From the IMG/VR virus record IMGVR_UViG_3300031211_000035, positions 1 through 21,288 of that record: DNA of 21,288 nt; one strand, 5' to 3'. Below, one piece after another: positions 3,558-21,288 of the stretch; positions within the stretch are counted from its first letter, which is position 1, and every line of letters begins with the position of its first letter. The stretch is from a virus. The notes under the pieces are model-generated. The model was not told the DNA's origin and searched no databases. It worked only from the letters and a program-made list of their open reading frames with translations. The position numbers and the translations under genes are program-made.

Positions 3558-3601
3558 TTAAACAACAAAATATTTTTGTACACAGAGGCAAGCCACAATG
3601 A
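3554..3601 (+). CDS. Possible 15-codon mini-ORF coupling two wedge genes
   Basis: ATG at 3554 opens a 15-residue frame (MIKQQNIFVHRGKPQ) that ends with TGA at 3599-3601. It overlaps the stop of the upstream gene through ATGA at 3554-3557 and the start of gene 8 through ATGA at 3598-3601. A purine-rich GGAGAGAGAAG run just before the ATG could serve as a ribosome binding site. The symmetric stop-start overlaps suggest translational coupling across a gap of about 40 nt that would otherwise be untranslated. It may encode a tiny peptide, or simply carry ribosomes into gene 8. An ATG plus 15 open codons is short enough to occur by chance, so confidence is low. Confidence 0.3.
   Translation: MIKQQNIFVHRGKPQ
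3584..3588 (+). promoter_or_regulatory. Shine-Dalgarno deciding the gene 8 start
   Basis: AGAGG lies nine bases before the ATG at 3598. Upstream in the gene 8 frame there is no other ATG before an in-frame TAA at 3559-3561, so 3598 is the only plausible ATG start. Confidence 0.6.
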
Positions 3602-4920
3602 GTGCTATCATAACAAATGATTTAAGAATCAAAAATGGAGACTACTTTAAAGATAATGTATCAGACATACCTATGTACATTTATTTTGGTGGTTCGTCGC
3701 CTTGGGAAGATGAACAGAATCCTCCCGATTCTGTCGATTCAACAAAAGGTCGAATTTCAGCAATGGATGATATCATTGGACTAAAAAGAATTTTTGGTTC
3801 TAATATAGCTTCTGTTTTGCCTCGTTACGATTGGAAAAACGAAAATGTTTATGACGAATACACCGATGAAGCAAATATAATTGATGACAAAAACCCAGAA
3901 ACAAATGAATATTACAAGTTCTTTGTTGTTACAGATGAATTTAATGTATACAAATGCATTTCAAATAATAATAGATCGAAATCTACAGTAAAACCAAGAA
4001 ATTCACCAATTGTATCATTTAGCACACCAGATGGATATATTTGGAAGTATATGTATACTATTAAGACAGAAGATGCTTTTAATTATATGACTCCAAACTG
4101 GATTCCCTGTTACACTATTTACAATAATGACCGGTCACAACAATGGTATGTTCAAAATTCAGCAATACACGGAACTATTGAACATATTGTTGTTGAAAAC
4201 GGTGGCGTAGGACACACATCATCAAACCCACCACTGGTTACTATTTCTGGTAATGGTTCTGGTGCAACTGCTGTTGCTCAAGTAAATGATTTCAGTGGCG
4301 AAGTTTCTAAGATTATAGTCACAAACTTTGGAGAGAATTATACAAGTGCATCTGTACAAATATCTGGTGGAGATGGCGCAAGCGCAACTGCTAAACCTGT
4401 CCTTAGTCCAATCAATGGTCATGGTTATGATGCTAGAAGTGAACTTGGTTCTACATATAAAGTAATTCGAGTTGAAGTTAATAATGATGAGAATGGTAAA
4501 ATTCCAATTGGAATACAATACCGAAAAGCGGGTATTTTAGTTGAACCAAAATCTATTGAAACCTCGACAACTATTTACGTTTCTGATACAAAATTCTGCA
4601 TAGTTGGTGATACGTTAACAGGAAAAACTTCTGGGGCAACAGGTATTGTTAGATCAATCAATAGTATAAAGAAAAAAATCTACTTAGAAGAAGTAATTGG
4701 TGTTTTTTCTGTTGATGAATTTATATCAAGAAGCGCACTTAGTGAAGAGCAACAAGTGCTTAGTATAATTAATGAAGACAATCTACCACTAACTGATTTG
4801 GTAGTAAGTGGTTCAGATTATAAACTATTATCAGGCACACCAATTTATTATTCAAGTAGAGAAAAAATTACTCGCGGTGTTAATCAAATCGAGGCTTTTC
4901 TTTTCATCATCTCTTTTTAA
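3598..4920 (+). CDS. 8: Baseplate wedge subunit gp8
   Basis: gp8 is a peripheral baseplate wedge protein; in T4 it forms a dimer that helps dock outer baseplate parts. Family landmarks in order are YFGGSSPWEDEQNPPDS at residues 29-45, the RYDW block near 76-79, DGYIWKYMYTI at 145-155, and a C-terminus ending in IYYSSREKITRGVNQIEAFL, which matches the gp8 pattern of an IYxxxR motif followed by xQxE and a final hydrophobic strand. At 440 aa it is about 100 residues longer than T4 gp8 (334 aa). Much of the excess is a glycine-rich two-repeat segment at about 195-275 (PPLVTISGNGSGATAVAQV, then VQISGGDGASATA). AGAGG at 3584-3588 supports the start, which overlaps the mini-ORF stop. No exact late promoter motif lies close upstream, so it is probably read through from gene 6. 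Confidence 0.88.
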   Translation: MSAIITNDLRIKNGDYFKDNVSDIPMYIYFGGSSPWEDEQNPPDSVDSTKGRISAMDDIIGLKRIFGSNIASVLPRYDWKNENVYDEYTDEANIIDDKNPETNEYYKFFVVTDEFNVYKCISNNNRSKSTVKPRNSPIVSFSTPDGYIWKYMYTIKTEDAFNYMTPNWIPCYTIYNNDRSQQWYVQNSAIHGTIEHIVVENGGVGHTSSNPPLVTISGNGSGATAVAQVNDFSGEVSKIIVTNFGENYTSASVQISGGDGASATAKPVLSPINGHGYDARSELGSTYKVIRVEVNNDENGKIPIGIQYRKAGILVEPKSIETSTTIYVSDTKFCIVGDTLTGKTSGATGIVRSINSIKKKIYLEEVIGVFSVDEFISRSALSEEQQVLSIINEDNLPLTDLVVSGSDYKLLSGTPIYYSSREKITRGVNQIEAFLFIISF

Positions 4921-4973: not shown

Positions 4974-7415
4974 ATGATAAAGCTACTAAAAATTAAAGAT
5001 TCTATACAAGAATGGGTTGATAAAGTTAATAATATTATTAATCTTAACAACGTTGATGGCTCTTTTTCAATAAGAAATGAAAATGTTACGTATACCAACA
5101 CTAAGGTTAATGTGTCTGGTGGTTATATTCGTGTCGGATATATAACAAAAACAGTTCCAGATAAGCAACTAATTTTACCTACAGACAGCATACTAATTAT
5201 TGGTATTGATTCTGATGATTTGTCTATTAAATATAATCATGAAAATAATCCAATTGCAAATATAACAACTGAACTTTATCGCGTAAAAACTAACAATGTT
5301 CGTATAACTGAGGTTGTTGAATTAAGGACTTGGGTAAGCGAGAATGCTAACCAATCTTCTATAGCTCCAACATCCCCCATAGGCAGCGCAGGATTAGAAT
5401 TATCAGGTACTGGTGCGGGCTGGAAGACATCTATAACTGTCCCTTCGACTAGCGGGTTTGAATCTGTAGGTAAGGTATGGTTATTGGGTGCAACCAACAA
5501 AGAACCAAGCAATCTAAATACAAATAACCTTTCTGTTTCTGCAATTACAAAAGGATTTTCTGAATCTTCTGATGTGGAATTTAGTTATAAAGTATCATAT
5601 TTTTCTTTCACTACTGGTGAATATTCACCATCATCACCGTCATCAACTGTTAGTATAAGCTCATCTGATTTACAAAATTTTTCTCTAACACAAAATATTG
5701 GACTCACCTTATCAAGACCAGACGCATCATCCGGTATATTAGTATATCGCCGCGTAGGATTAGGAGTAGATTATAAACTAATTTCTGTTCTTGGTCCCAG
5801 TGAACTAGGATTTCAAACATCCAATATCTCTTTTATTGACTACTGGACATGGAGCGTTGCTGTTTGGGCCGACAAAGACATCAATGGTTATATTAATAAC
5901 AACATCAAAATGTTACCACAGGTAGCACCATCAAGCTCTGGTGGTGGCTGGACATCTGCTGATATTGATCGGGTTGATTATAATAACAATATTATTTATT
6001 TTAAAAATAGTGTTTATTTTAAAAATACTTTTTGGGTATATCCAGATCACACCGATAGACTACAAGACCTAATTGATAAAAAAGGTTATATTGAAATACC
6101 CAGAGGCGAAACATGGATAAAATCTTTATCCATACCCGTAGGAACAACATTGTATGGACATGGTGTTTTAAGTAAAATTAAAAGACTGCCTTGGTGTGGT
6201 GGTGATGATCTTCATATGCTTTCTGGCGAACCTTCTCAAGAAGAAGGTGATATGAACTTTGAAGCAAGAATGTTATCTATTCAGGGTAATGCTATAAACC
6301 AATGGATGCCCGATGTAAATTCTAATAGCAAATTATCTACTGTTAAACTAAACGGTCGTGGTATAAAAATAAATAACTGTGCAGTAGAAGATGTTAGAGG
6401 TAGTGCTTTGTGGTTTAATGATGATGATGGAGCCGGATTAGTAGAATTAGTAGAAATTCATAATTCGAAAATAGAAGGTGGGGGCTTGGATCTAAGAGAA
6501 ACAACATACCCAGTATATTGCCGTGGTGCTAAAAATATACATACAAGCAACAATACATTTGCAAGATTTACAGAAAGTGTAGATTTTACTGGATTAAGAA
6601 ATGCAGTTATTACTCCAAACATAATTCGTGATTGTGGTTCTGGTCTGCTTTTGTTTGGAGCCATTAATACTATTTCATCTCCAAATGTTATTATTGGTCC
6701 TAATGGGGAATACATACAAAGTTCTGATCAACTAAATTCAGAATTTGACAGTGTTAATATTCGACTTGTACCCGGCGAGGATTATGTATCCCCTAGTGTG
6801 GTTTATCAAGAGGGTGGTGAGTTATTTAATCTTTCCGCAAATAATGGAAAACTTACTACTGCAATAAATGAACTAACGATAATTAATGGATCAGAAGTTA
6901 TAGGAAATGATTATACTACAATTGAAAACACAGAAAACGAATACATTGTTTTAAATAATAGTGTGCAATTTGATAGAGGTGAAGTTTCTTGGAGAATACC
7001 TAGTTCGAATGTTAATGACTTACTTGATAGAGCCAATATTAATACACTAAGAGATACTAATCCAAACAGTCAAGGGCTTGTGTATCGAATACTACAAACA
7101 GAGTACCCAGTAATCGCAAATATTTCTAATGGATCTTATGATAATAGTTCGGGCTTATATGAACTTACTGTTATTGATGACAGAATAATCACTGGATTTG
7201 CTGGTTTATCTATTGTGGGAGTTGGTGATGTAGTTAGGATATTTAATCATAGCACCACACCTGACCTTACAAATATTGAAGGTAAAGTAATGAGTATAAA
7301 TACAATAACTAATAGAGTTATTGTTGATTTTGAAACTGAAATATCAACAGCCGGTGATACTGGTCAATTAGCACTAAAGAATACATTTACAATTGTTAAA
7401 GGGAAAATAAACTAA
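4974..7415 (+). CDS. Fibre-like structural protein with probable parallel beta-helix
   Basis: An 813-aa protein directly after gp8. The first ~130 residues (starting MIKLLKIKDSIQEWVDKVNN) look like an N-terminal virion-attachment module, perhaps with a short helix followed by beta-rich sequence. Residues ~200-260 are a Ser/Thr-rich beta region with a YKVSYFSFTTGEYSPSSPSS stretch, reminiscent of an Ig/FnIII-like domain. From GYIEIPRGETW (about 371) to about 600, short beta-strands recur with N/G turns (VKLNGRGIKINNCAVEDVRG, NIHTSNNTFARF, NAVITPNIIRDCGSG, NVIIGPNGEYI), typical of pectate-lyase-like right-handed beta-helices in tailspikes. I cannot identify catalytic residues. A C-terminal beta domain of about 200 residues follows. 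AAGG at 4960-4963 sits 10 nt before the ATG. The stop overlaps the next start by one base (TAATG). It could be a short tailspike, a host-glycan-binding fibre or an adaptor. Confidence 0.78.
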   Translation: MIKLLKIKDSIQEWVDKVNNIINLNNVDGSFSIRNENVTYTNTKVNVSGGYIRVGYITKTVPDKQLILPTDSILIIGIDSDDLSIKYNHENNPIANITTELYRVKTNNVRITEVVELRTWVSENANQSSIAPTSPIGSAGLELSGTGAGWKTSITVPSTSGFESVGKVWLLGATNKEPSNLNTNNLSVSAITKGFSESSDVEFSYKVSYFSFTTGEYSPSSPSSTVSISSSDLQNFSLTQNIGLTLSRPDASSGILVYRRVGLGVDYKLISVLGPSELGFQTSNISFIDYWTWSVAVWADKDINGYINNNIKMLPQVAPSSSGGGWTSADIDRVDYNNNIIYFKNSVYFKNTFWVYPDHTDRLQDLIDKKGYIEIPRGETWIKSLSIPVGTTLYGHGVLSKIKRLPWCGGDDLHMLSGEPSQEEGDMNFEARMLSIQGNAINQWMPDVNSNSKLSTVKLNGRGIKINNCAVEDVRGSALWFNDDDGAGLVELVEIHNSKIEGGGLDLRETTYPVYCRGAKNIHTSNNTFARFTESVDFTGLRNAVITPNIIRDCGSGLLLFGAINTISSPNVIIGPNGEYIQSSDQLNSEFDSVNIRLVPGEDYVSPSVVYQEGGELFNLSANNGKLTTAINELTIINGSEVIGNDYTTIENTENEYIVLNNSVQFDRGEVSWRIPSSNVNDLLDRANINTLRDTNPNSQGLVYRILQTEYPVIANISNGSYDNSSGLYELTVIDDRIITGFAGLSIVGVGDVVRIFNHSTTPDLTNIEGKVMSINTITNRVIVDFETEISTAGDTGQLALKNTFTIVKGKIN
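7295..7302 (+). promoter_or_regulatory. T4-type late promoter motif before the 1222-aa gene
   Basis: An exact TATAAATA lies inside the last codons of the upstream fibre gene, 112 nt before the ATG at 7415. It would give the first giant structural gene its own late transcript. Its position supports function, but a chance match is possible in AT-rich coding DNA. Confidence 0.5.
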
Positions 7416-10400
7416 TGAGCAGTTTAAATAATATAAACAATAATTCTAGCGTAGTTAGTGTTGGTCGAACCACACCAATTACTCCCGGTCCCCAGCCCTC
7501 AAGTAAAAGTCTTCCGGTTGTTGTTGCAAGTGATCAGGAAGCTATTCCAGTTGAAGAACAAAATAAAATTCAAAGTGAAGTTGCGCTTAGTCTTCTTGGT
7601 ATTCCTCGGGCGGAAGTTGCTTTGGGTATCTTTGCAGACGTTAATACATATGATGTTAACCCGAAAGAATGGAGCAGTAATCCAAGCAATTATTCTTTTG
7701 TATCAAATACCGAAAAACCAGAATACGCCGATATTGCTGGGCCTCAAGGCTATGGCGTTAAGCATCTTCCCGAAGAAAGTGGTGCATTAGTGGAATCTCC
7801 CGCTGATGATACAACAATTCTTACTTCTAAAAGATTTTTTAGATATCAACCGGGGCGTGTCAGTTCCGCTACGTTTGGTATTAAATCAAGTAAATTAATT
7901 GGAGATATAACAGAACGAAATGCAGTAAAAAATCCACCTATCAAAAAATTTGGTATTTTTGACAAATTTGATGGTTATTATTGGGAAACTCGTGATACTT
8001 CCCAAGGTGATCAGTTTGCTGTTGTTCGCAGAACTCAAAGCATCATGAGTTATAATCCATTGAAATTTGGATCAGCTTCTGGTCAACAAGTAGAAGATCA
8101 TGGCCTTGCTGGCCAGCCAGCAGACATAGGCCGCGAACGTGTTGGTTATTATCAACGTGAATGCGAAATAGTGAATATACAGAGATTTGAAATTATTGAT
8201 ACTGTTGTTGGAAGCAAAGATCCAAAATATGCAAGAGATTTTCATCTAATTATTGATGCTTTTTTGAATGATCTTAGGTGGGGCGGTGATGGCCATACAG
8301 TCGTTAACAGTACAACATACCGCACAACACTGAATGAAACCCCAGCCGCCTTTGTGGCATCTCTAGAGGCGCTAAGAGATGAAATCAACTTGGTCTTGAC
8401 CGACAGTGGATACACAGAGGCATCTAGTAAAATTACAAGCCTATCACAAATTCTGATTGACTTTTTTACATCTGGTAATATTTCTAATCTATCCAACATC
8501 AACTGGGGTGATCGACCAAAAGTTGACACAATCATATCTGGATACGATAAGTATCTAGGGTTTTTGATATCCTCGGAAGCAGACTTTGAAGGTGTATTTG
8601 CCGGTCAAACACAAGAAATGTATGAATTATTCAGATACAAAACATTACTAGATATTAAGTTTATAGCTAATGCTATTGGTTCTGATACACAATACGGTGG
8701 TAATGCAGCAACAGTATACACATCAAAAAATAATTACTCTAATAATGAACTTATTGCTGCTGCTGCTGTGTCGGAAGATGGTAAACAACTGCTAATCACT
8801 GCATATCAGAGACTGAAAGAGTTTCTAACATCAACTACCAGTATTACTGTTGAGCTTTCTAATGGTACAACTAAAGATATTGATAGCGTAGTAAACTTGT
8901 TTAGTCTTAGTGAAGCTCAAAGAACAAAATTAAAAGATCTATCTGATATTGCAATTGATAACTTTGATGAAGAATATCAAGGCATCATTGATTATGGTTC
9001 TGCTGATCAATTTGGAGACACTGTAATTCTTCGTGATGGTTTAATAATGACTCATGCCGCCGTATATGACCCTTCTTTGTTGCTTCCTAAAGAGATGGCA
9101 TCTTCTTTGGCTTATCCAGATACTAATACAGTTGTAACTAGTGGTCGTGAACTTGTATCTGGTCAATATGTCAACTATCACGGTGATGCGGGTGGCTTGG
9201 TAAGTGGGAAGACTTATAGAATTGCGTCTGTTGCTGGTTTTACTGCAAATGAGATTACACTAGAAGACCCAATGAATAATGCTCCTGTTGTTATTACAAG
9301 CTCAGGAACTTCTAGTGTGATTGAAACCCCAGTTCCTTTTATATTTCCTGATGATTATGACGAACCATTCTTAACAGAAACTAGCCCAACCAACTATGAT
9401 GGCATGTTTCCATACCAGTATATAAGCGAAGATGACCCTATGGGGGCTATTGATACTTCTATTGATACAAGTACAGTAGAAGGTTCTGCATCAATGCAAG
9501 CTCAAATTGATGCTGTTAACTATAAATTTAATAACTGGGTTCTGGCTAACGTTGATCCAAGATATTATTCTGTATATGAGTTTAGAGTGCCACGTAGCAG
9601 ATTTTCTGGTGATAGCTTAAATGGTAAAAAAAGACAAGCAGTATATTCTGATAATGTTTTGGACAAACGAGCCGGTGATCCTGTAATTGAAGACGGTGTG
9701 CGTGTAGAACAACAATCACTATGGGACTTTGACTTTTCTAAAGTATCAATGCTCAAGATTGATTTTTCTTGGTATGGTGCGGTAGGTGCTCTATTTCTTG
9801 CTTATGTTCCTGCAAGTAATGGTGAAGCTAGGTGGGTAAGAGTTCATCACCTACGTTGCTCTAATCAATTGAAAATTTCATCACTTGGTAATGCAACATT
9901 ACCAATTACATATCTTGTCTATGGTGGTGGATCTGAAAGAAGAATGGGACTTGAAAACAGTGCTAGATTACCATCAAATTATAATTCATATTCTGAACAT
10001 TTGGTAAAATATGGATCTTCATATTATATTGATGGTGGTGATAGAGGAACAGTTAGATTGTATAATCACAGTTCTGATGAACCAACTGAAATTCAAGGAT
10101 CAAAATATAATTTAGATATATCGGATGCATCTGATGCTACGGATACAACAGATCCTAGATTTATTGTATCATCTAACACAAATGTTAATACTTTTTATAT
10201 GAATGCAAAAATTGTTACTGGCAATCCACAGGATCAAAGCGTTCGAGTCGTTTGGGTAGATGAAGACACCAACACTTTACATCTAAACAAAATATTATCA
10301 GGTAATAGTTTTTCTACTGTTGGTATTATTACAGATAGACCTTCTATATTATATGGTATCAAGACTAAAGACTTTATAACATCTAGTGATGGAAAAGATG

Positions 10401-11083
10401 TTAGAAATCGTGTACAGGTTTATCCTACAAGATTGAGTTTAGGTACAAATGGATCTGGGTCTGGAAAAGCTAGTCTTCTAAAAACTCCACTGTTCCAAAC
10501 AAAAACAATGACCTTTGGATCTATCTCAACAACATCTGACATGAATCTAAACGAAACACGATTTGTTAGTGTAGATAATGAAGATTATATAAAAGAATTT
10601 GATGATTTTGTTTATGGGTATTTTCGTGCGCTAAAAGGTAATTCAAGCTCTCTTTTTACTGTCTTAGGAACACTGACTAAAAAAGCAAATGGTCTTTCAT
10701 TCGTCCCACTTGATAGTTTTAACACGGATATAATTATACCTTCTGGTCAGAAATTTCTTAAAGAGGGAATCTTTGATAGCAACGGTAACTCTATTGAATT
10801 TAATGAAGGTGATTTTGAGAAAGAAAGATTGAGTTCGGTAGAAGTTTCTGTTGTAAATGCTTCTCCTATTCCAAGAACGGGTGTAGACATATCTTCTTTT
10901 TATGTTTCGGGGGGCGCTCAAGACTTTGACCTTTCATCTTACTTTGATTATAACAAGGAATATATTTCTTATCCACTGACAGACTCATTAGAAACTCTTT
11001 ATATAGTAGGTTCTTCTACCATTATAAATAACTCGACGCCAGCAGTTTCTATTTCGGCTAGTCTAACTTGGGAGGAACAGTAA
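7415..11083 (+). CDS. Giant virion structural protein, paralog A (1222 aa)
   Basis: A large modular tail/baseplate-associated protein of unknown function. Residues 32-46 hold SLPVVVASDQEAIPV, a motif common near the N-terminus of phage tail proteins. SLLGIPRAE (59-67), RYQPGRVSSATFG (143-155), the MLKIDFSWYGAVGALFLAYV block (from 779), and the YGSSYYIDGGDRG block about 90 residues further on are all shared with the next gene's product, as is the C-terminal SSFYVSGG region. Between RYQPGR and the SWYGAVGA block lies about 520 residues of extra sequence. It includes two tandem helical domains of the RD-x-IIDA-x-x-NDL-x-x-GG type, at about 271-395 and 404-525, followed by a beta-rich linker. AAAGGGA at 7398-7404 supports the ATG, which overlaps the preceding stop. 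Expression is likely late, from TATAAATA at 7295. Virion location is inferred from context and paralogy; the coding call is firm. Confidence 0.8.
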   Translation: MSSLNNINNNSSVVSVGRTTPITPGPQPSSKSLPVVVASDQEAIPVEEQNKIQSEVALSLLGIPRAEVALGIFADVNTYDVNPKEWSSNPSNYSFVSNTEKPEYADIAGPQGYGVKHLPEESGALVESPADDTTILTSKRFFRYQPGRVSSATFGIKSSKLIGDITERNAVKNPPIKKFGIFDKFDGYYWETRDTSQGDQFAVVRRTQSIMSYNPLKFGSASGQQVEDHGLAGQPADIGRERVGYYQRECEIVNIQRFEIIDTVVGSKDPKYARDFHLIIDAFLNDLRWGGDGHTVVNSTTYRTTLNETPAAFVASLEALRDEINLVLTDSGYTEASSKITSLSQILIDFFTSGNISNLSNINWGDRPKVDTIISGYDKYLGFLISSEADFEGVFAGQTQEMYELFRYKTLLDIKFIANAIGSDTQYGGNAATVYTSKNNYSNNELIAAAAVSEDGKQLLITAYQRLKEFLTSTTSITVELSNGTTKDIDSVVNLFSLSEAQRTKLKDLSDIAIDNFDEEYQGIIDYGSADQFGDTVILRDGLIMTHAAVYDPSLLLPKEMASSLAYPDTNTVVTSGRELVSGQYVNYHGDAGGLVSGKTYRIASVAGFTANEITLEDPMNNAPVVITSSGTSSVIETPVPFIFPDDYDEPFLTETSPTNYDGMFPYQYISEDDPMGAIDTSIDTSTVEGSASMQAQIDAVNYKFNNWVLANVDPRYYSVYEFRVPRSRFSGDSLNGKKRQAVYSDNVLDKRAGDPVIEDGVRVEQQSLWDFDFSKVSMLKIDFSWYGAVGALFLAYVPASNGEARWVRVHHLRCSNQLKISSLGNATLPITYLVYGGGSERRMGLENSARLPSNYNSYSEHLVKYGSSYYIDGGDRGTVRLYNHSSDEPTEIQGSKYNLDISDASDATDTTDPRFIVSSNTNVNTFYMNAKIVTGNPQDQSVRVVWVDEDTNTLHLNKILSGNSFSTVGIITDRPSILYGIKTKDFITSSDGKDVRNRVQVYPTRLSLGTNGSGSGKASLLKTPLFQTKTMTFGSISTTSDMNLNETRFVSVDNEDYIKEFDDFVYGYFRALKGNSSSLFTVLGTLTKKANGLSFVPLDSFNTDIIIPSGQKFLKEGIFDSNGNSIEFNEGDFEKERLSSVEVSVVNASPIPRTGVDISSFYVSGGAQDFDLSSYFDYNKEYISYPLTDSLETLYIVGSSTIINNSTPAVSISASLTWEEQ
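11023..11030 (+). promoter_or_regulatory. T4-type late promoter motif before the 1151-aa gene
   Basis: An exact TATAAATA lies in the last codons of the 1222-aa gene, 59 nt before the ATG at 11090. This spacing resembles the motif before gene 6. It probably starts a transcript covering the 1151-aa, LRR and 339-aa genes, before whose other starts I found no exact motif. Confidence 0.6.
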
Positions 11084-11089
11084 CCTAAA

Positions 11090-14000
11090 ATGCCAAAAAT
11101 AAAGATAGGATTTGATAAAGTATCTACGCCTTTTATCTTAACAGATCAACCCCTATATGACATTATAAGAGGTGTCCCTTTAAGGGATGCCTCTCGCAAT
11201 GTTATTGTTACTGATTCTATTGTACCCTTGCCTAGTGGAGTTGATTCAAATAATTCAACTAGCGTTATTGTTGATAGCTCACCATATGCAAAACCAGTGA
11301 AAATTATTGAACAATTTCCCGAAACCTCGGCAGTTAGTTCTTCACTTCTGGGAATTCCTAGAGCAGAAACACAACTTAGTCTATTTTCTGACGTGAGTAC
11401 ATATGGTTTAGATGAAGATCTTTTTGAATATTATGACTATTCTTCAAACGGAAGACCCAGCCAGTGGTATACCAGAAGAAATGAAACCCATGGCAATCAT
11501 TTTTCTCCTAGATTATCAGAAGAAATAAATCAACAAGCTCTGGTAATTGAAGCATATCCTGTAAACTATACGTTTACAAGAGGGCCAAGGTTTGAAAACT
11601 ATAATGAAAATGCATATGAAAGATACAAGAATTTTATTCTTCTTGGTAATTTTCTATATAGAGAATATAAAGATGTAAATTTGAGCTTCGCAAACAAACA
11701 ATTCTTAGATCCAGCCGTTGTTACAGTATTTAATAATGAAGTCATATACGAATCGGATGATAGTACTTCTTTCGATTTAATTGAAAAGTGGACGCATGGT
11801 TGGATGGATATGAGGGACGGTACTCTTATAGATCCTTATAATAGACAAGTATTATTTCCAGACGGGCTTGGTTCCGATGTAACTCTTCCCGGTAGCAGTT
11901 CTTCTGGTCGCTACTATGGGATGCTAGAATCTAAGAAAACTTATCGTTATCAACCGGGTCGAATTTCTGGTTTTAGTTTTGGCTTTCGTTGTTCGACAGA
12001 TGAGGCTAGTGTTGATAATGTTATCGAATGGGGCGTTGGTAATCCGTCAGATCAATACGTTTTTCAAGTCAGAGGTGCATCATTTAGTATAGTTAGAAGA
12101 AGTACGATACCACTGCCAGAAAAAGTTCTTATAAGACAAGGGTTAACTTTAGATGACCAAGTTCTTAAAGGATCTACAGAACCCGTTAATTCTAAGGCCA
12201 TATATGAAACGGTAATCCCTAGAGATATGTTTAATAACGACACTGTTGATGGTAACGGCAAAAGTGGTTATTTGATTGATCCAAAAAAAGTTACGATGTA
12301 CAAGATTGAGTTTGGCTGGTACGGTGCTGTTGGTGCAAAATTTTATGCTTATGTACCATCCAGCAATGATGGTGCTCGGTGGGTGCTGATGCATACTCTA
12401 GTAATTGAAAATAGTTTAAACGAGCCATGCTTAGAAGACCCTAGATTCAAATTCAGATATACTCTGGATATTAGGAACACTTCTAACCTAAGAGAACCCC
12501 AGTATTTGTATAAGTATGGGGCTAGTTGTTTTATTGACGGGGGAGATAGCGGTTCTGAATATCCATATTCTCATTCAAGTGAAGGTAATGTAGTCAATTC
12601 TAACTCAAGATCACCTTTGCTTGGTATTATGCCAAAAAGAAAAATATTTAACTCAGATGGTATTGGAAAAGAAAATAAAAATAATATATATCCTGTTTCT
12701 GTTAATGCTTCGACTGACCAACTAACAGAAATACAAATAATTGAAGTTGATGGTGCTGATACTTTTGGCCACCATTACACTCCATCTTTGCATTCTAAAG
12801 AAAGTGGAATTATCAGATCATTTAATATATCCGAAGATTATAAAACTATAAGTATTATAGACGGACCTGAATATAATGTAGAAGATATTATAAAAGGTAA
12901 TACGGCAATTATTCAAACTGTATTGAATCATAATCTATACTCTGGTCAAAAAGTTAGAATTAGTAATGTAGAAGGTATGGAAGAACTCAATAATCAAGAA
13001 TTTTATATCAAAGTTCTTGATTCAAAACAAATATCATTGTTTTCTGATAGTAGTCTTAATACTGCTGTATCCAATACAAGCTATAATGACTATATAACTG
13101 GTGGTGTTATTCTAAGTATTCCTATTTTTAGGAATATTATAGATAATGATGCAAAACTAATTTCATCAAAAATTCATAGCAGTTACATAAATCCAATAGA
13201 TGAAAGAACTGCAACAATTTCACGAATTGGTATTAGAGGTTCATACAGAAAAACAAAGAATGAATCAATTTCTAAAGAAACAAAAGTTGATGGAGAAATA
13301 GTTAATTTTTTAGATGCTGTTGATACATCAAATGTCAGATTTTCTAACTTTGATGGTATAGCAACTTCTATATACCCACTTACCGGTGACGTGATTGACG
13401 TTAACTTTCTGAATAGATTATCTAGGGAAGCGACTGGGCAATTTACAGAATTTAGGATTGGAGTCACTGATCTTTTGCCTGACACAAGAGAAGAAATTAA
13501 TCAGATTGGTGTAGCAGAAAAAACAATATTTTTTAGAAATAAATTAGGGGTAGAATTCAGAGTTCTAGATGATACCGATTATCTATTTGAAGGTTTTACT
13601 CAGCGTGGTGTTTCAAGGGATCGTGATGGAATTGAAATAGGTGAAGATATTGGTGGGTATGGCATAAAAATGGGCTTAGATTATAGAATAGGTAGTCCAA
13701 GGGGTGTTGATTCTGGTGTCCCTTCTAGTGTAAGAATAAAGATAGATCAAAGAATTGGTTTTGAAATAGATTATTCAGATACTAACCCGAAAACTTCACA
13801 ACCCGGTAATTATCTGATTTTTCGAGAGATACCAGAATCTATTCTAAATGTTACTTTATTGGGTGGTGAACTTGGTATTGGTGGTTCAATAATAACAGCC
13901 GAAGCATCTGGTGTATATTTTTTGTCTAATATGCAATCGTATGTTGTGAGCCAAGAAACGGGAGCGATAGGACATTTTGTTGAGATTGATTCTATTGTTT

Positions 14001-14545
14001 CTCTAAATATAGATGACATGTTGTGGATTACTTCTATTTCTATAGGTGATCGTGGTTATCTTGATATTAACCAATCTATAAAATTCTCAAACAGAAAGAT
14101 TTTTAGTTTTAATCCTAAACCACTATATCTTGTATTACAATTTAGGGATAATTGTAAAGTCAATAATGTTTCAGTTACTGAATATTTTTCAAACTCAACA
14201 AGATCATTTTCTCCATTTTGGATTGTAAACGATTTGGTTGATGTTATTAACAGCGGTGGGTCACAACAAGGACTGCCTGCCGAAGATTATAAATCAAAGA
14301 ATAGGCTGGAATCTATAGGGGTTACTACTGGATTGACTCAACCGCTTCGCCCCGGCGTAGTTAAAGATTCTTTCTATATATCCGAAGGTAAAAATAAAGA
14401 AATTTCATTAGATTCTATTTATGGTCCAGACCGAACTACATTATCAACAGGTCTTTTAAATACTAAAGCAACATTCTTTACTGCTAGATCTGTTGAGAAT
14501 AATAATATTAACCTAGTAGATTTTAATGTCGTTACAAAGGAATAA
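11090..14545 (+). CDS. Giant virion structural protein, paralog B (1151 aa)
   Basis: A paralog of the preceding 1222-aa protein. Shared blocks in the same order are SLLGIPRAE (85-93), RYQPGRISGFSFGFR (from 286), the MYKIEFGWYGAVGAKFYAYV block (from 403), YGASCFIDGGDSG about 70 residues later, and a C-terminal SFYISEG region. Here only 117 residues separate RYQPGR from the WYGAVGA block, so it lacks the long insertion of paralog A. Residues ~604-673 resemble the FCCH-type beta module often found in phage tail proteins: LNHNLYSGQKVRISNVEGME, then LNNQEFYIKV, ending in YNDYITGG. The C-terminal half is beta-rich and unrecognised. GGAGG at 11071-11075, in the last codons of the previous gene, lies 14 nt before the ATG. 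Six bases separate the two genes. It is probably a baseplate rim or fibre-anchoring protein; the exact role is unknown. Confidence 0.8.
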   Translation: MPKIKIGFDKVSTPFILTDQPLYDIIRGVPLRDASRNVIVTDSIVPLPSGVDSNNSTSVIVDSSPYAKPVKIIEQFPETSAVSSSLLGIPRAETQLSLFSDVSTYGLDEDLFEYYDYSSNGRPSQWYTRRNETHGNHFSPRLSEEINQQALVIEAYPVNYTFTRGPRFENYNENAYERYKNFILLGNFLYREYKDVNLSFANKQFLDPAVVTVFNNEVIYESDDSTSFDLIEKWTHGWMDMRDGTLIDPYNRQVLFPDGLGSDVTLPGSSSSGRYYGMLESKKTYRYQPGRISGFSFGFRCSTDEASVDNVIEWGVGNPSDQYVFQVRGASFSIVRRSTIPLPEKVLIRQGLTLDDQVLKGSTEPVNSKAIYETVIPRDMFNNDTVDGNGKSGYLIDPKKVTMYKIEFGWYGAVGAKFYAYVPSSNDGARWVLMHTLVIENSLNEPCLEDPRFKFRYTLDIRNTSNLREPQYLYKYGASCFIDGGDSGSEYPYSHSSEGNVVNSNSRSPLLGIMPKRKIFNSDGIGKENKNNIYPVSVNASTDQLTEIQIIEVDGADTFGHHYTPSLHSKESGIIRSFNISEDYKTISIIDGPEYNVEDIIKGNTAIIQTVLNHNLYSGQKVRISNVEGMEELNNQEFYIKVLDSKQISLFSDSSLNTAVSNTSYNDYITGGVILSIPIFRNIIDNDAKLISSKIHSSYINPIDERTATISRIGIRGSYRKTKNESISKETKVDGEIVNFLDAVDTSNVRFSNFDGIATSIYPLTGDVIDVNFLNRLSREATGQFTEFRIGVTDLLPDTREEINQIGVAEKTIFFRNKLGVEFRVLDDTDYLFEGFTQRGVSRDRDGIEIGEDIGGYGIKMGLDYRIGSPRGVDSGVPSSVRIKIDQRIGFEIDYSDTNPKTSQPGNYLIFREIPESILNVTLLGGELGIGGSIITAEASGVYFLSNMQSYVVSQETGAIGHFVEIDSIVSLNIDDMLWITSISIGDRGYLDINQSIKFSNRKIFSFNPKPLYLVLQFRDNCKVNNVSVTEYFSNSTRSFSPFWIVNDLVDVINSGGSQQGLPAEDYKSKNRLESIGVTTGLTQPLRPGVVKDSFYISEGKNKEISLDSIYGPDRTTLSTGLLNTKATFFTARSVENNNINLVDFNVVTKE

Positions 14546-14547
14546 AA

Positions 14548-16932
14548 ATGTCGTCTATCAAGCCAGAAATTAAGTTTGGTCTAAATGTAAACAGATCATT
14601 TACTGATATAAGTGATAGAAAAAAGTCTCTAGAGAACCTTGGTCTTTCTTTTGATGATCTTGAAATTATCAGAGGCTCGTCAGAAACTAACGGAATATCC
14701 AGAAATGATGTTAGAACCATTTCTGGATTAGATATACCAATCCAAAGATATATTGTTAGGTTGAGAAGTGATGTTAGTAAATATAGAGGCATACTTGAAG
14801 ATCTAGCTGGTATAGATCAACGTCTAAAAGGCAACCTTGAAATAAATGGCTCTCTTGCTGCAAGTGCAATAAAATATAGTTATATTGAAAACGACACCAA
14901 TGATGTAAAGAAAGCTGACATTTCTACATCTCGGGTGTCTAGTTGGAGTTCTACTGAATCGCCTGTCTTGCCAGAGTCGGCTATATTTTATGGGGGAGAT
15001 CTTGATGTCGGTGGTAAAATAACAACTACTAATCTAAACTTCACCAATGATATAACCCCTGTATTTTTTAAAGATTCTGAAATTCCTACCCACAAGATAC
15101 AAGCAGAAGTTAATGGTAGTACAATTTACTTCTATGCAATGAAAGGAATACCCATTATTTTTAAGGGATTTTTCAGAAGCATGGATGCTGAATTTTCTTT
15201 GGACACCAAGGGGGCTATAAGCATTCGTGTGGTTGATGTAGAAGATTCTAGATACACTGCTAAGTATGAAAATCTAGGTGGTAGAGATGCTGATAGAGAG
15301 TCTTTAACATATAGATCAAATAGACCTGCTCTTAAAGATGTAGAAATATATCATGATCCATCAAACATCACAAGAATAAAATTAAACCGTTTGGGTATAT
15401 TTGAATATCCATCAAAAGTTATTCTTCCTAAAATGGATAGATTGATACTTGATAAAAATAACATTAAAAGTTTTCCTGACCTTGCTAAATTAACACCTAC
15501 ATTGACTTACTTAGATATGAGCGAAAACCCGCTTTTTAGTTCTGATGATGATAGTATAAGAAAACTTAATGATATCGTGGTTGCTCGCATTCCTCCTAAT
15601 ATAGAAACTCTTATATTTGGTAATACATACAGAGGTTCTATTACAGGGGATTTAACAAATCTACAAAACTTAAAATCGTTGAACCTTGATTCAAATAGTA
15701 AAAACTTGGGATTTGGTAGAGATTTAGACGATCCTAATGCTACATGCCCCGAAGTTTCTGATATGGTAACTAGCTATAGTGTTCAAAGAAATAAATTCAG
15801 AACAATACCCAATTCAGTTAAAGAGCTTCCAGAGTTAGTCAGTATAAATTTATATAATAATAACATTACTGACAGATCATTTAAAATTGATAGTGAAAAT
15901 ATTAGATCAATCAATATTGGTCGCAACGCTATTAATACACCAAATATGAGTGGTAGCGATACTTTAGAAAGTCTTTCGGCCAGATACTCTTATAATAGAG
16001 CAAGATCAGGCGATGATATCAATGGTTTGGTTACTGACTCGGGTGTATATAAGTTTAATAATTGTTCCAAATTAAATTCTATTAACTTGTATAGAAGCTT
16101 TTATAGAGGTTATATACCAAAGTTTTCTGGTAATAGTAGTCTCAGTCGAATTGATCTTTACTATACTCAGCTTTCTGGTGGTAGAATTGGTGATGATAGT
16201 CGCGTTTTGTTTTCTGATACATTTGATGATTGTGCAGACAGCTTAACTTTTTTTAGGCTGGCTAGTTATTATCTATTAAATGCTCCTATAGATCCCGATG
16301 TATTTAGAGATGCAAAGAATATAAGCTACTTGTATATAAAAAGTTTTAACAGAGGCGTAACAGGCCCAATTCCTGATTTGAGTGGTATGCCTAATCTTGT
16401 AAGTTTTTATATGCATCAAAACAAACTAACTGGAACAGTGCCTAGATTTTCAAATAACCCAAGAATACGGACTGTGTATCTATCAGAAAATAATTTAGAT
16501 GGCGCTGTTCCTTTTATTGAAAGTAGCACTTTAACAACTTTGAGTTTGCATACAAATAAATTAACATCATTTACGAAAATCAATGTGCCATCTCTTATCA
16601 ATTTGTATTTACACAACAATAATTTTAATGCCGAGATACCAGATATTAGTAATCTTTCGAGTTTAAGAACTTGTAGGTTAAACGATAATAGTTTCAATGG
16701 TTATAAAAGTGGGATATTCTCTTCATTAACAAATTTGCGGTCGTTGGATTTATCTAATAATAGCTTAACAGAAAGTGATATTAACTCGATAATGAGAGAT
16801 ATGTTAGAAAACTATAAAAAAAGCCCTAGAGGACGAGTAACTATTAATATAAGGGGAAACTCGGTCGCAACTGGTGCTGGGGTTGATATTATTTTTACAC
16901 TAAGAAGCTACGGCTGGATAATAAGGAACTAA
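14548..16932 (+). CDS. Leucine-rich-repeat virion protein (candidate adhesin)
   Basis: A 794-aa two-part protein. Residues 1 to ~150 form a module of the kind I associate with marine T4-like structural proteins: SLENLGLSFDDLEIIRGSSE, RTISGLDIPIQRYI, then LEINGSLAASAIKY and ADISTSRVSSWSS. This part presumably anchors it to the virion. After a beta-rich linker, residues ~270-755 contain about 18-19 leucine-rich repeats of about 20-30 residues. Clear examples are LDKNNIKSFPDL, TGPIPDLSGMPNLVSFYMHQ, NKLTGTVPRFSNNPRI, LYLHNNNFNAEIPDI and LRSLDLSNNSLT. The IPxLSGxxNL and NxLTGxxP forms resemble plant-type LRRs. LRR solenoids bind proteins or glycans, so a receptor-binding role is plausible but inferred. 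AAAGGAA at 14536-14542 is a strong Shine-Dalgarno, and two bases separate it from the preceding gene. No signal peptide or membrane segment is evident. Confidence 0.85.
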   Translation: MSSIKPEIKFGLNVNRSFTDISDRKKSLENLGLSFDDLEIIRGSSETNGISRNDVRTISGLDIPIQRYIVRLRSDVSKYRGILEDLAGIDQRLKGNLEINGSLAASAIKYSYIENDTNDVKKADISTSRVSSWSSTESPVLPESAIFYGGDLDVGGKITTTNLNFTNDITPVFFKDSEIPTHKIQAEVNGSTIYFYAMKGIPIIFKGFFRSMDAEFSLDTKGAISIRVVDVEDSRYTAKYENLGGRDADRESLTYRSNRPALKDVEIYHDPSNITRIKLNRLGIFEYPSKVILPKMDRLILDKNNIKSFPDLAKLTPTLTYLDMSENPLFSSDDDSIRKLNDIVVARIPPNIETLIFGNTYRGSITGDLTNLQNLKSLNLDSNSKNLGFGRDLDDPNATCPEVSDMVTSYSVQRNKFRTIPNSVKELPELVSINLYNNNITDRSFKIDSENIRSINIGRNAINTPNMSGSDTLESLSARYSYNRARSGDDINGLVTDSGVYKFNNCSKLNSINLYRSFYRGYIPKFSGNSSLSRIDLYYTQLSGGRIGDDSRVLFSDTFDDCADSLTFFRLASYYLLNAPIDPDVFRDAKNISYLYIKSFNRGVTGPIPDLSGMPNLVSFYMHQNKLTGTVPRFSNNPRIRTVYLSENNLDGAVPFIESSTLTTLSLHTNKLTSFTKINVPSLINLYLHNNNFNAEIPDISNLSSLRTCRLNDNSFNGYKSGIFSSLTNLRSLDLSNNSLTESDINSIMRDMLENYKKSPRGRVTINIRGNSVATGAGVDIIFTLRSYGWIIRN

Positions 16933-16933
16933 A

Positions 16934-17953
16934 ATGTCGATTAGATCAAGTATACAAGGTTACGTTAGGAATAATAATCTTAGTGAGTCTCTTTTAGATA
17001 GGGACGCTTTAAATAATCTCGGCGGATCTCCTATTGCAGATGATATAGCACTCTTTGCAAATAATTTAAAAAATGAATCTATTATTTCAATAAGAAAAGA
17101 TGAGTATGATAGTACAACTGGGTTTTTTACTATAGTTAACACAACTACAGAAGAGATTAATAAAAGGGCGTCAGTTTTTACTGATGGTGACGTTGTATCA
17201 CTTATTGATGAAAATGGAGATATATTAGGAGAAAATCTTTATATAACAGACAGCAATACTATAGATGAATTTAGATTAAGCAGTAAAAAAAATTCATCTG
17301 ATGCAGGCGATATAATTAATGTTGGAGATCTTTCTCAATATGAAGATAATTACGTTCTATCTATAATTAGAAGCGATGCAGTCTCATCTATTAATATACT
17401 AATGCTGTCAGAGCAAAAAGCTAGGTCTGTGTCTTATAATAATAGTAATGATGATAGTCAGTTACGAAATAACAATGATGATATTTTTAATGTGGGTAAT
17501 TTAGAAGATGAGTTTTCTAGTATCAACTTTAATATTGATTATAGTGAGTTTGAATCTAAAAGAAAATATAGAAAAGATGTTTCAATTTTAACAGATTATA
17601 ATCTTGAAATTGACGGGGCTGTTGGCATAACAGACCCGTCAGATACCATTTCTCAAGAAGGGTTTAGTGAATCCTCACCGGGTTTATATATTTCAAATCC
17701 TGATTCAAATCCAGAAGATGTGGATATAACTAGGGCATTTAGTAGCAACTACAATTCTTGGTCTGATAATGGACAAGGCGCACTTACTACAGAAAGTAGG
17801 AATGTTACTGTTGGTTCATTGATATATAATAATGGGGTTCAGATTGATGGCCTACCTGATAATACAGTAGATAAATCCATCAATCTGAATTTCTCTCATA
17901 AAATGAACGTAGTTATTGATGGGATTTCATATAACTTGTGTTTAACTACTTGA
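16934..17953 (+). CDS. Virion structural protein, 339 aa, function unknown
   Basis: The gene starts one base after the LRR gene stop, with AAGGAA at 16923-16928 as Shine-Dalgarno, so it is almost certainly in the same operon. The N-terminus has an LLDRDALNNLGGSPIADDIA block followed by LFANNLKNES, similar in style to N-terminal modules of other T4-like marine phage structural proteins. The middle (residues ~160-200) is rich in Asn, Asp and Ser. The C-terminal third includes SPGLYISNPDSN, RAFSSNYNSWSD, GSLIYNNGVQIDG and a final beta-strand YNLCLTT. No enzyme motif is visible. Its 3' end overlaps the convergent 731-aa gene by 12 bp. A minor fibre or neck/baseplate accessory role is possible, inferred only from context. 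Confidence 0.72.
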   Translation: MSIRSSIQGYVRNNNLSESLLDRDALNNLGGSPIADDIALFANNLKNESIISIRKDEYDSTTGFFTIVNTTTEEINKRASVFTDGDVVSLIDENGDILGENLYITDSNTIDEFRLSSKKNSSDAGDIINVGDLSQYEDNYVLSIIRSDAVSSINILMLSEQKARSVSYNNSNDDSQLRNNNDDIFNVGNLEDEFSSINFNIDYSEFESKRKYRKDVSILTDYNLEIDGAVGITDPSDTISQEGFSESSPGLYISNPDSNPEDVDITRAFSSNYNSWSDNGQGALTTESRNVTVGSLIYNNGVQIDGLPDNTVDKSINLNFSHKMNVVIDGISYNLCLTT

Positions 17954-20137
17954 TGATATAATATTAAATCTATTCCCCTTTACAGTAATTCCAATTTCTC
18001 TGTCGTATGTTTGATTATTTTGTGTTATAGCATTAACTGTTGTTAAGTTTGCAGTCAAAGATACGACAGATAGATTGGAGTTCGGATGTGAAAGTTCGAT
18101 ATTTTTATTTGTTGCTAGTCCTGTATCTGTACCACTAAATGGAGGGGCTGTATTGAGAGGTATAATACATTGCTCTTTATTTAGTGTAGTGCTTGGTGGA
18201 CAAAACACAATACTGATACCAGAAATCATGCTACCTATTGCTGGATTAGATATTGTTATCGTATTTGTTGCACTATTGATGCTAGTTACTGTTGTCCCTT
18301 CATCAAAAGAACCTGTTGACTGAACAACCATATCTAAAACTAGATCACTAACATTATTAAGTATGATATCAGTATCGCCAACACTTACAACTTCTCCAAG
18401 ACCACCAGCCGTTTCTTTACCAATTACACCACTACAAAAATTATCTAGTGTGTTGTTTGTCAATCCTTTGTCTTGATAAAAAAACATCTGTCCTGATTGG
18501 CTTAACTCTAAGTTGTCATCTACAGTAAATTGTGAATTGGATAGTATCTCTTGTACTCTACAGTACCTAGTAGTATTTTCTGTTACACAAACCATTCCTA
18601 CTTTAAGAAATGCATTGTCATCAATTGTCACTACATTATTATTTAAAGTATATGATTTGTTATTAATATAACCTTTATGACTAAAGAACTTGACCGATTC
18701 TGTTGAACTACTCCCTATTGAATCATTATCTGAGATTATTAAAATATTAGAAGATATTTCAACAACCCTTGAGTTTTTTGAAATATTATCATTGTATATG
18801 ATATTACCAATTTCAATACCATCTGTTAGTGGAGAGTTCTCTGTTACAGATATTACTTTACTATTAGATACTGTTCTGTATTGGTAGTCACCTACTAAAA
18901 TATCCGAGTATGCCTTTGGTGGAATATAACCAACAAAAAGCGGTGATGTAGTTAATAATTTAATGTATTCATTAGAAGATTCAACAGATTCTGGTCCAAT
19001 AGTACCACCACCACCCAGTAGTGCATTATTAAAAAAAGATTTAAATGTTGATTTCTCGACTTCATTATCATATTTTGGGGTTTTTGACAAATACAAAAAA
19101 GATAAATTCCTAAAAAAATTTACATTATGCCTAAAATCTACATCTAGGTATTTTCTTAAATAATTTTCACCAACTTCGGGAAATATTAATGTGATTCTTA
19201 TCTTTTTTGATACAAACTTTTCAAGGTTACGATATGCATGTTGTACTCTATACCCTTCTTCTCCAATATAGTCATCAACCGAAATAGTAAATGGTTCATC
19301 TGCTAATATTGATACATTATCTCTTAACAATATGTAGAATTTAGTTGAGTCGCCTGAATCGTAAACATTTTCTATTAGTGTATTAACTCCATTAATAGTA
19401 ACACTTACATTTTCAGGGATATTAATGTAGTCTAATTTTGAAATCTCAATAAGATTACCTGATGAAACTTCATTTAACGATATGGCTGTGTACTCATTTG
19501 TCACTTTTTTTGCGACTTCTAAGATGCCTTCATTATTTTCAACTTCAAATATAAAATATCCAGTTGTATTAAAAGAAAAATTGACTACACCTGACTCTAC
19601 AGGAGTAAAGTAACCTTCCCACTGTATAGCTCCATTACTTCCCCCCAAAGTGTTATCTATCATATTAGAAAATCTAAAAGATCCATTATCCCATAATAAA
19701 TTAAGCACAGTATCAGGATTCTCTAAACTAACTGAATCACCATCATCTATCTCAGACAAGTTCAATAATTTATCTGCACCCCAAAACTTTGCTGGTAGTC
19801 CATTTCCACCGTTAAAGAAAGATTCTTTTCCTGTAGTTCTTTCTAGTATGTTTATTCTGTTTTTTAGCGTAATAAAAGGAGATGCAGTAATAAGATTTGT
19901 TATGGAATTAAAATCAGATTTCTGTACAGTTGAACCGGCAATTTTGATAAAATCAGAATTTGTCATTTTTTCTACATACAAATCATTAATCGGGGCAATA
20001 TCATCTGCGTCAAATGATAGATCACCGCTTACTAGATCATTAAGAATATTTGTTAGTGCTGTTTTTTTATTTTTAATGTCGTTAAAATTTTCTGTTCTGA
20101 CCAAGCCATAATTTTTGAAACTTTTTTTATAAGACAT
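17942..20137 (-). CDS. Minus-strand structural protein with PA14-like region and three beta repeats
   Basis: A 731-aa protein encoded opposite to every other gene in the window. The N-terminus (KNYGLVRTENFNDIKNKKTA at 9-28, then LTNILNDLV) resembles a module of marine T4-like structural proteins. Residues ~113-225 look like a PA14-type carbohydrate-binding beta-sandwich: LPAKFWG at 114-120, then GYFTPVESGVVNFSFNTTGY at 175-194 and FIFEVENNEG. Three tandem beta-rich repeats follow at about 425-489, 490-560 and 577-647. The last reads like the phage motif VGDTDIILNN...GMVV...GTTVTSI...TITISNP. The C-terminus has TLNKEQCIIPLNTAPPFSGT. The ATG at 20137 has a weak Shine-Dalgarno, but a CATAAATA late-type motif lies about 30 nt upstream. 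It is probably a virion or host-binding accessory protein; the PA14 call is by eye only. Confidence 0.8.
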   Translation of the reverse strand: MSYKKSFKNYGLVRTENFNDIKNKKTALTNILNDLVSGDLSFDADDIAPINDLYVEKMTNSDFIKIAGSTVQKSDFNSITNLITASPFITLKNRINILERTTGKESFFNGGNGLPAKFWGADKLLNLSEIDDGDSVSLENPDTVLNLLWDNGSFRFSNMIDNTLGGSNGAIQWEGYFTPVESGVVNFSFNTTGYFIFEVENNEGILEVAKKVTNEYTAISLNEVSSGNLIEISKLDYINIPENVSVTINGVNTLIENVYDSGDSTKFYILLRDNVSILADEPFTISVDDYIGEEGYRVQHAYRNLEKFVSKKIRITLIFPEVGENYLRKYLDVDFRHNVNFFRNLSFLYLSKTPKYDNEVEKSTFKSFFNNALLGGGGTIGPESVESSNEYIKLLTTSPLFVGYIPPKAYSDILVGDYQYRTVSNSKVISVTENSPLTDGIEIGNIIYNDNISKNSRVVEISSNILIISDNDSIGSSSTESVKFFSHKGYINNKSYTLNNNVVTIDDNAFLKVGMVCVTENTTRYCRVQEILSNSQFTVDDNLELSQSGQMFFYQDKGLTNNTLDNFCSGVIGKETAGGLGEVVSVGDTDIILNNVSDLVLDMVVQSTGSFDEGTTVTSINSATNTITISNPAIGSMISGISIVFCPPSTTLNKEQCIIPLNTAPPFSGTDTGLATNKNIELSHPNSNLSVVSLTANLTTVNAITQNNQTYDREIGITVKGNRFNIISSSS

Positions 20138-20284: not shown

Positions 20285-21288
20285 ATGTCAGAATCATCTA
20301 ATATTACAATTCGGCTAGGTATTAATGGAGGCACTGACTCACCATTAACTTATGAGCAATTAGACACTAATTTTTTAGAACTGAAATCCGTTATTGATGA
20401 CTACAATGATCACATCAATTCAGAAAATCCACATGATGCTATCTTTATTTATTATGACAATGAAAATTCTAGTTTATCCTCATCTGACATTCAATCTGCA
20501 TTAGATGAAGTTGACGCCAATGTTGTCAATATGCAGAATCAGATCACTACTAAACTAGATAAAACTTCTTTTGAAGACCATATTGATTCAAATACTGCAC
20601 ACAATGCAGTTGATATCGTATACGATAACTCTAATTCAACAATACAGCAAGATGATGTTAATGCCGCAATAGATCAACTTGATGCTAATTATAATGCTAA
20701 TGATGTTTTAAATAAGATAAAAAGTGTTGATGGTTCCGGTAGTGGTTTGGATGCGGATACGCTTGATGGTATTGACTCGCTAGGCTTCGACGCGGCGGGC
20801 GCTGCTGACACTGCCGTATCAGATCACGAGGCTACAAATGACCATCCCTTAGCCACGACTAGCGCAAAAGGTTTTCTGTCTGGCGCTGATAAGACTAAGA
20901 TTGACACTGTTGAAGACGGTGCCACGGCAGATCAAACTGATGCAGAGATTAAAATAGCCTACGAAAGCAACGCTGACACTAATGAGTTTAGTGACGCAGA
21001 GAAAACAAAACTATTAGGGATTGAAGACGGTGCCACGGCAGATCAGACAAAAGCAGATATTGACGCCCTTAATATTGATGCGGATACGCTTGATGGTATT
21101 GACTCGCTAGGCTTCGACGCGGCGGGCGCTGCTGACACTGCCGTATCAGACCACGTCGCGCTGCCTGACCCACATACACAATACGAACCTAGACTAAGTG
21201 CCAATATGGTTTGGGATAGTGTAAGTGATGACTACAGCCGTGATAGATTTACGTCAGGCATTACCCCGATCCATGAAGCTATGCGCCG
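20285..21288 (+). CDS. Repeat-rich tail fibre protein (N-terminal part, cut by window end)
   Basis: The reading frame is open from ATG 20285 to the window edge (334 codons). Residues 1-40 (ITIRLGINGGTDSPLTYEQL, then DTNFLELK) look like a phage fibre attachment segment. Two 56-residue-spaced repeats follow at 42-79 and 98-135, with pattern DHIxS...HxA...YDNxNS...DAN. From about residue 150 the protein consists of classic tail-fibre motifs: DADTLDGIDSLGF twice (156 and 265), TSAKGFLSGADKTKID, EDGATADQT twice with a 37-residue period, and DPHTQYEPRL near 295. These make up the elongated shaft; the receptor-binding tip would lie beyond the window. DNA from about 20750 is much richer in G+C than the first 460 bases, suggesting acquisition from another genome. 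It has its own late promoter motif at 20217. Confidence 0.85.
   Translation, partial: MSESSNITIRLGINGGTDSPLTYEQLDTNFLELKSVIDDYNDHINSENPHDAIFIYYDNENSSLSSSDIQSALDEVDANVVNMQNQITTKLDKTSFEDHIDSNTAHNAVDIVYDNSNSTIQQDDVNAAIDQLDANYNANDVLNKIKSVDGSGSGLDADTLDGIDSLGFDAAGAADTAVSDHEATNDHPLATTSAKGFLSGADKTKIDTVEDGATADQTDAEIKIAYESNADTNEFSDAEKTKLLGIEDGATADQTKADIDALNIDADTLDGIDSLGFDAAGAADTAVSDHVALPDPHTQYEPRLSANMVWDSVSDDYSRDRFTSGITPIHEAMR
20408..20521 (+). repeat. Tail-fibre protein repeat, copy 1 of the DHI...YDN unit
   Basis: Codons 42-79 share their spacing with codons 98-135 (offset 56 residues). Matching positions include DHI, the internal H, YDNxNS and DAN. The DNA copies have diverged, so this is an old duplication within the AT-rich part of the gene. 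Confidence 0.7.
20576..20689 (+). repeat. Tail-fibre protein repeat, copy 2 of the DHI...YDN unit
   Basis: Codons 98-135 pair with copy 1, 168 bp upstream. The repeat probably forms a shaft segment of a trimeric fibre. Confidence 0.7.
20750..20823 (+). repeat. Perfect 74-bp direct repeat, copy 1
   Basis: Identical base for base to 21077-21150, at an offset of 327 bp (109 codons, in frame). It encodes the DADTLDGIDSLGFDAAG segment and its continuation to SD. The sequence is markedly G+C-rich compared with flanking DNA. Confidence 0.92.
20910..20934 (+). repeat. 25-bp direct repeat encoding EDGATADQ, copy 1
   Basis: Identical to 21021-21045, at an offset of 111 bp (37 codons, in frame). EDGATADQT is a known recurring tail-fibre shaft motif. 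Confidence 0.88.
21021..21045 (+). repeat. 25-bp direct repeat encoding EDGATADQ, copy 2
   Basis: Second identical copy of 20910-20934. The two copies bound a 37-residue unit containing the NADTNEFSDAEKTKL segment. Confidence 0.88.
21077..21150 (+). repeat. Perfect 74-bp direct repeat, copy 2
   Basis: Identical to 20750-20823. After the repeat the two copies diverge (DHEATNDHP after copy 1, DHVALPDPH after copy 2), so it marks the ends of a 327-bp recombination-prone unit. Confidence 0.92.

Follow-up and report, generated by a model that had tools for sequence, protein, structure and literature searches.

A leucine-rich-repeat protein in a conserved structural gene block of marine phages, a probable virion component at the tail tip or baseplate periphery

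Leucine-rich-repeat (LRR) solenoids are among the chief scaffolds with which surface receptors of eukaryotes read their ligands. A preliminary description of the locus examined here held that LRRs are uncommon in phage virions, and our fold comparisons agree that they are rare in phage proteins. Among the 29 viral fold matches to its LRR protein at E ≤ 1e-3, a phage origin is identifiable only for those of cyanophage S-TIM5 and Bacillus phage G and for three proteins of uncultured Caudovirales; nearly all the others are giant-virus proteins. In the openly licensed papers searched, no LRR protein is reported as a part of a phage virion, and the nearest match in this literature is a BspA-like LRR gene listed for the Vibrio jumbo phage pir03 (PMC7765460).

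The closest described counterparts are gp118 of S-TIM5 (YP_007006107.1, UniProt H6WFW9) and UYE97282 of S-TIM54 (Aurunvirus). The former is annotated as a 'virion structural protein' and occupies the LRR position within a block, gp121-gp116, that has the same gene order and strand pattern as ours; S-TIM54 has the same order as well. These phages were reached through the synteny of two neighbouring genes (P3 and P4 below) and through profile comparison, tblastn with the LRR protein having given nothing.

Our locus lies in a virus record of 21,288 bases, the whole of which was analysed and is called the window. Its relevant features are the following.

133 to 1851, plus strand: T4 gp6-like baseplate wedge subunit (Pfam PF21379, 1.8e-15; PHROG 219, 5.7e-129)
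3598 to 4920, plus strand: T4 gp8-like baseplate wedge subunit (Pfam PF09215, 3.1e-11; PHROG 438, 2.1e-87)
4974 to 7415, plus strand: P2, 813 amino acids, belongs to the block on its upstream side (orthologues occur in matching order)
7415 to 11083, plus strand: P3, virion structural protein (phrog_1645; S-TIM5 gp120)
11090 to 14545, plus strand: P4, paralogue of P3 (S-TIM5 gp119)
14537 to 14541, plus strand: Shine-Dalgarno sequence AAGGA, 6 nucleotides ahead of the ATG of the LRR gene (sequence)
14548 to 16932, plus strand: LRR protein, 794 amino acids (ORF translation, Pfam, AlphaFold2)
14551 to 14736, plus strand: shared N-terminal module, residues ~2-63 of the LRR protein (hhalign with column-shuffle control, hmmsearch)
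15091 to 15351, plus strand: predicted beta-sandwich-like domain, residues ~182-268 (AlphaFold2 pLDDT ~70-87 over most of the domain)
15367 to 16827, plus strand: LRR solenoid of 19 repeats, residues 274-760 (Pfam, AlphaFold2, repeat count)
16828 to 16929, plus strand: C-terminal LRR cap, residues 761-794 (kept in relatives, folded in the AlphaFold2 model)
16934 to 17953, plus strand: P5, 339 amino acids, shared N-terminal motif at its start (orthologues, profile comparison)
17942 to 20137, minus strand: P6, 731 amino acids, carries the shared N-terminal module (orthologues, profile comparison)

The start codon of the LRR gene lies 2 nucleotides past the stop of P4, and the Shine-Dalgarno sequence noted in the preliminary description is present at the spacing given above. 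The gene is also correctly placed there among baseplate and fibre genes, as the two wedge genes are found upstream and a fibre-like gene begins at position 20285, downstream of the block. This last gene is still open at the end of the window. It contains tail-fibre repeats, and at the DNA level some stretches match genes annotated as fibre or tail genes in cyanophages and in a Roseobacter phage, at 70-76%. The available stretch, 20285-21288, holds ADTLDGIDSLGFDAAGAADTAVSDH repeats and a 79-nucleotide repeat that is 99% identical, which suggests recent duplication or recombination.

The adjacent genes P3 and P4 are paralogues (E 6.5e-21). A similar neighbouring pair, gp044/gp045, is found in phage S-CBS4 close to genes annotated as tail fibres. 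The order P2, P3, P4, LRR gene, P5 and reversed P6 recurs in the contigs inspected, although in some of them further ORFs separate P4 from the LRR gene. A short ORF with a collar-like IPVGGIIMWSG motif occupies this interval in some contigs of cyanophage type (L053, 8481-8999; L067, 8378-8890). No match to gp6 was found in the contigs of the ten closest relatives, which are fragments and so do not prove its absence, and in two other phages gp6 lies far from the block. Thus, the adjacency to wedge genes seen in the window is not common to all, and because the position of the block relative to gp6 varies between phages, the block appears to behave as a unit in different genome contexts.

The LRR protein exceeds the curated cut-offs of three Pfam families (LRR_4, 9.4e-16; LRR_8, 1.9e-14; LRR_1, 1e-5), and a phmmer search of the PDB returns plant LRR receptor kinases at E ~1e-33, with the best stretch at about residues 587-740. 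PHROG 6688 (1.2e-16) and PHROG 21719 (1.9e-6) also match the LRR stretch. Where 18-19 repeats had been proposed, we counted 19, all of the LxxLxLxxN type and running from residue 274 to about 760 before the C-terminal cap. Their spacing is usually 21-26 amino acids, with four longer repeats of 32-36. The plant-type NxLTGxxP extension occurs in some repeats, being clear in some of the C-terminal ones (NKLTGTVP, NNLDGAVP) and missing from many others.

An AlphaFold2 monomer prediction, made from an alignment of 16 family members, yields the solenoid that the preliminary description expected, with residues ~270-794 mostly at pLDDT 90 or above. The structures that this solenoid matches include plant receptor-kinase ectodomains, at Z up to 28, and an internalin. 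Since the protein is rich in N, S and L, one could suppose that the LRR matches are an artefact of low-complexity sequence with no genuine solenoid behind them. This is extremely improbable given the Pfam and PDB matches and the retention of length and repeat frame across relatives, and the confident prediction over some 520 residues already refutes it at the level of the model. A genuine LRR solenoid is thus well supported by prediction. The N-terminal 183 residues gave no confident monomer fold, even when the N-terminal 275 residues were refolded with 32 sequences.

The LRR protein has an N-terminal motif in common with P5 and P6, in which a G-hydrophobic pair is followed by NL-x-D/E and then by AL-x-NL. 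Because hhalign E-values from small alignments are rough, the profile comparisons were controlled by column shuffling. The LRR protein and P6 align over 61 columns with a score of 59.2 (E 1.5e-11), against a maximum of 17.4 in 150 shuffles. The scores for the LRR protein with P5 (27.4) and for P5 with P6 (27.8) are reached in none of 150 shuffles, where the maximum is about 16.6; P5 shares only the first ~30 amino acids of the module. HMMs built from the single families cross-match weakly (hmmsearch E 3e-5 to 0.004). The module, labelled phage-type in the preliminary description, has no match among Pfam or PHROG families, but it is kept in relatives and is common to two neighbouring genes. The sharing suggests a common docking module or site for the three proteins.

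Viral contigs were scanned with the protein and with alignments built from it, in one case with the N-terminus alone, and these scans recovered 35 distinct relatives of at least 700 amino acids. All 35 have LRR-type repeats (matches clipped by contig ends cannot be judged), and the N-terminal module and the C-terminal cap are both conserved. One more member lies on a MAG contig beside P3, P4, P5 and part of P6. The preliminary description had envisaged the same N-terminus joined to other C-terminal domains. No such combination was found in the N-terminus-only scan of viral contigs, and every complete relative keeps the LRR part. Two longer forms of 964 and 969 amino acids (L002, 7998-10892; L018, 8998-11907) carry two FTxVGA...FTATGT-like inserts that break the solenoid at two positions common to both forms. 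In a 236-kb contig (L067, 8995-11307) the LRR ORF lacks the first ~37 residues of its relatives, possibly through a frameshift or sequence error. The contigs of some relatives also contain psbA/psbD-like genes (Photo_RC), so that for this subgroup alone cyanobacterial hosts are indicated.

Neither the LRR protein nor its first 294 residues gave any tblastn match in 50,697 phage records. A generic LRR consensus query likewise gave nothing, although the low-complexity filter may hide LRRs and this result is therefore no proof of absence. Matches to Listeria 'phage' records were set aside because they are weak (E 2e-4 to 0.3), come from unannotated records and are probably internalin-like LRRs. 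The standard T4-like cyanophages S-RIM2 and Sf-CH8 have a short P4-like protein and no LRR-like annotation seen within 14 kb.

Profile and fold comparison nevertheless connect the family to cultured phages. S-TIM5 gp118 aligns with the LRR family at an hhalign E of 9.8e-12, in an alignment whose 317 columns take in the N-terminus and the first LRRs, and it is the best viral fold match of our protein (BFVD, E 4e-16). The S-TIM54 copy matches LRR_4 at 7.9e-8. As judged from these comparisons, gp118 is a remote homologue of the LRR protein. Its deposited annotation, together with the gene context, leads us to infer that the LRR protein is present in the virion.

These same observations bear on whether the protein might instead act outside the particle, as an intracellular or secreted LRR protein that interacts with the host as an effector and is co-transcribed with structural genes. 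The giant-virus LRR proteins that dominate the fold matches are often non-structural, which lends this explanation something. It is nonetheless very unlikely, because the N-terminal module is common to P5 and P6, the gene keeps a fixed place within a structural block across distant phages, and the S-TIM5 counterpart is annotated as structural.

The preliminary description had proposed a distinct class of receptor-binding protein. An LRR solenoid mounted on a conserved N-terminal module and encoded in a virion gene cluster is indeed what we find, but the receptor-binding role itself has so far gained no support. Such a protein would read a ligand on the host surface with its solenoid, set host range and found a new receptor-binding class. 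LRR solenoids are classic ligand-binding scaffolds, as in the plant receptor kinases and internalin matched above, and the gene sits among adhesion and baseplate genes. Variability at exposed concave positions is also slightly above that at the other non-core positions, though not significantly. The concave face is thus no better conserved than the remainder (entropy 1.87 versus 1.69, p 0.12), and no conserved binding patch was located.

Receptor-binding proteins usually, though not universally, combine a constant N-terminus with an exchangeable or hypervariable C-terminal domain, and from a tip involved in an arms race one would typically expect either exchange or rapid change. Here every complete relative keeps the LRR part, and the LRR gene has the lowest median dN/dS in the block within the close clade (0.076, versus 0.127 for P3, 0.105 for P4, 0.125 for P5 and 0.123 for P6; 45 pairs from ten related loci, with dS ~0.6-1.0 and without a significance test). 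Across the wider family, divergence is somewhat greater in the LRR part than in the N-terminus (median distances 0.60-0.63 versus 0.53). The divergence of the N-terminus, the LRR part, P4, P5 and P6 is nevertheless congruent, with Spearman coefficients of 0.86-0.95 overall, and of 0.90-0.95 for the LRR part against the other four, that are dominated by a few clades. Low dN/dS and the failure of the N-terminus-only scan to find C-terminal swapping argue against a swapping receptor-binding protein engaged in an arms race. They fit either a conserved part of the baseplate or tail tip or an adhesin whose ligand does not vary. With a conventional fibre-like gene also present downstream, we consider a host-range-setting role rather unlikely. 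Being unusually well conserved, the LRR protein resembles a constant component of the particle, or a protein that reads some stable feature of the host, more than it does a fast-changing host-range fibre, and a receptor-binding role is possible if the receptor is invariant.

We therefore favour, as the probable explanation, a conserved virion protein at the tail tip or baseplate periphery that is docked by the shared module and whose solenoid binds a conserved partner. The short N-terminal module, present also in P5 and P6, would dock the protein on a common site formed by other structural proteins of the block, probably the P3/P4 pair, and the beta-sandwich-like domain would then present the 19-repeat solenoid. 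The conserved partner might be another virion protein, in which case the solenoid could hold the P3-P6 assembly together, or it might be a host-surface feature that does not vary.

A bolder form of the second alternative is that, in a widespread lineage of marine phages, a plant-receptor-like LRR solenoid carried on the virion serves as a conserved sensor or adhesin for a host-surface ligand that does not vary, mounted via the docking module common to three neighbouring tail proteins. We regard this as unlikely, but if true it would define a class of receptor-binding protein based on ligand-reading LRRs and not on trimeric fibres. The LRR gene is in any case a fixed and slowly evolving part of its block in more than one marine phage lineage, including lineages with psbA/psbD-like genes, and one shared N-terminal module links three unannotated neighbours.

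Several known systems resemble the LRR protein in part. Like the ectodomains of the plant LRR receptor kinases RGFR1, BRL2, MIK2, FLS2 and HAESA, it has a long solenoid, with the plant-type LRR motif in some of its repeats, but it has no kinase part, carries a phage N-terminal module and shares ~20% identity with them. The likeness may reflect convergent use of the motif. Conventional tail fibres and spikes, which are trimeric beta-helix or knotted proteins, share its gene neighbourhood and its probable surface position, whereas our protein is an LRR solenoid for which C-terminal modular exchange was not found. The phage LRR-containing proteins of PHROGs 6688 and 21719, whose function is unassigned, match the LRR region and leave the N-terminal module uncovered. 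Gp353 of Bacillus phage G and the uncultured Caudovirales proteins are likewise phage-encoded LRR folds, but their TM-scores are low (~0.1-0.2) and the same N-terminal module and block were not found with them. The S-TIM5 and S-TIM54 proteins are longer (1193-1217 versus 794 amino acids) and too divergent for tblastn, their annotation names no LRR, and the gp6-like domain model was not found in the S-TIM5 genome. They nevertheless share with our protein its place in the block, the N-terminal homology and the LRR fold, and as products of cultured phages they make the LRR candidate directly testable.
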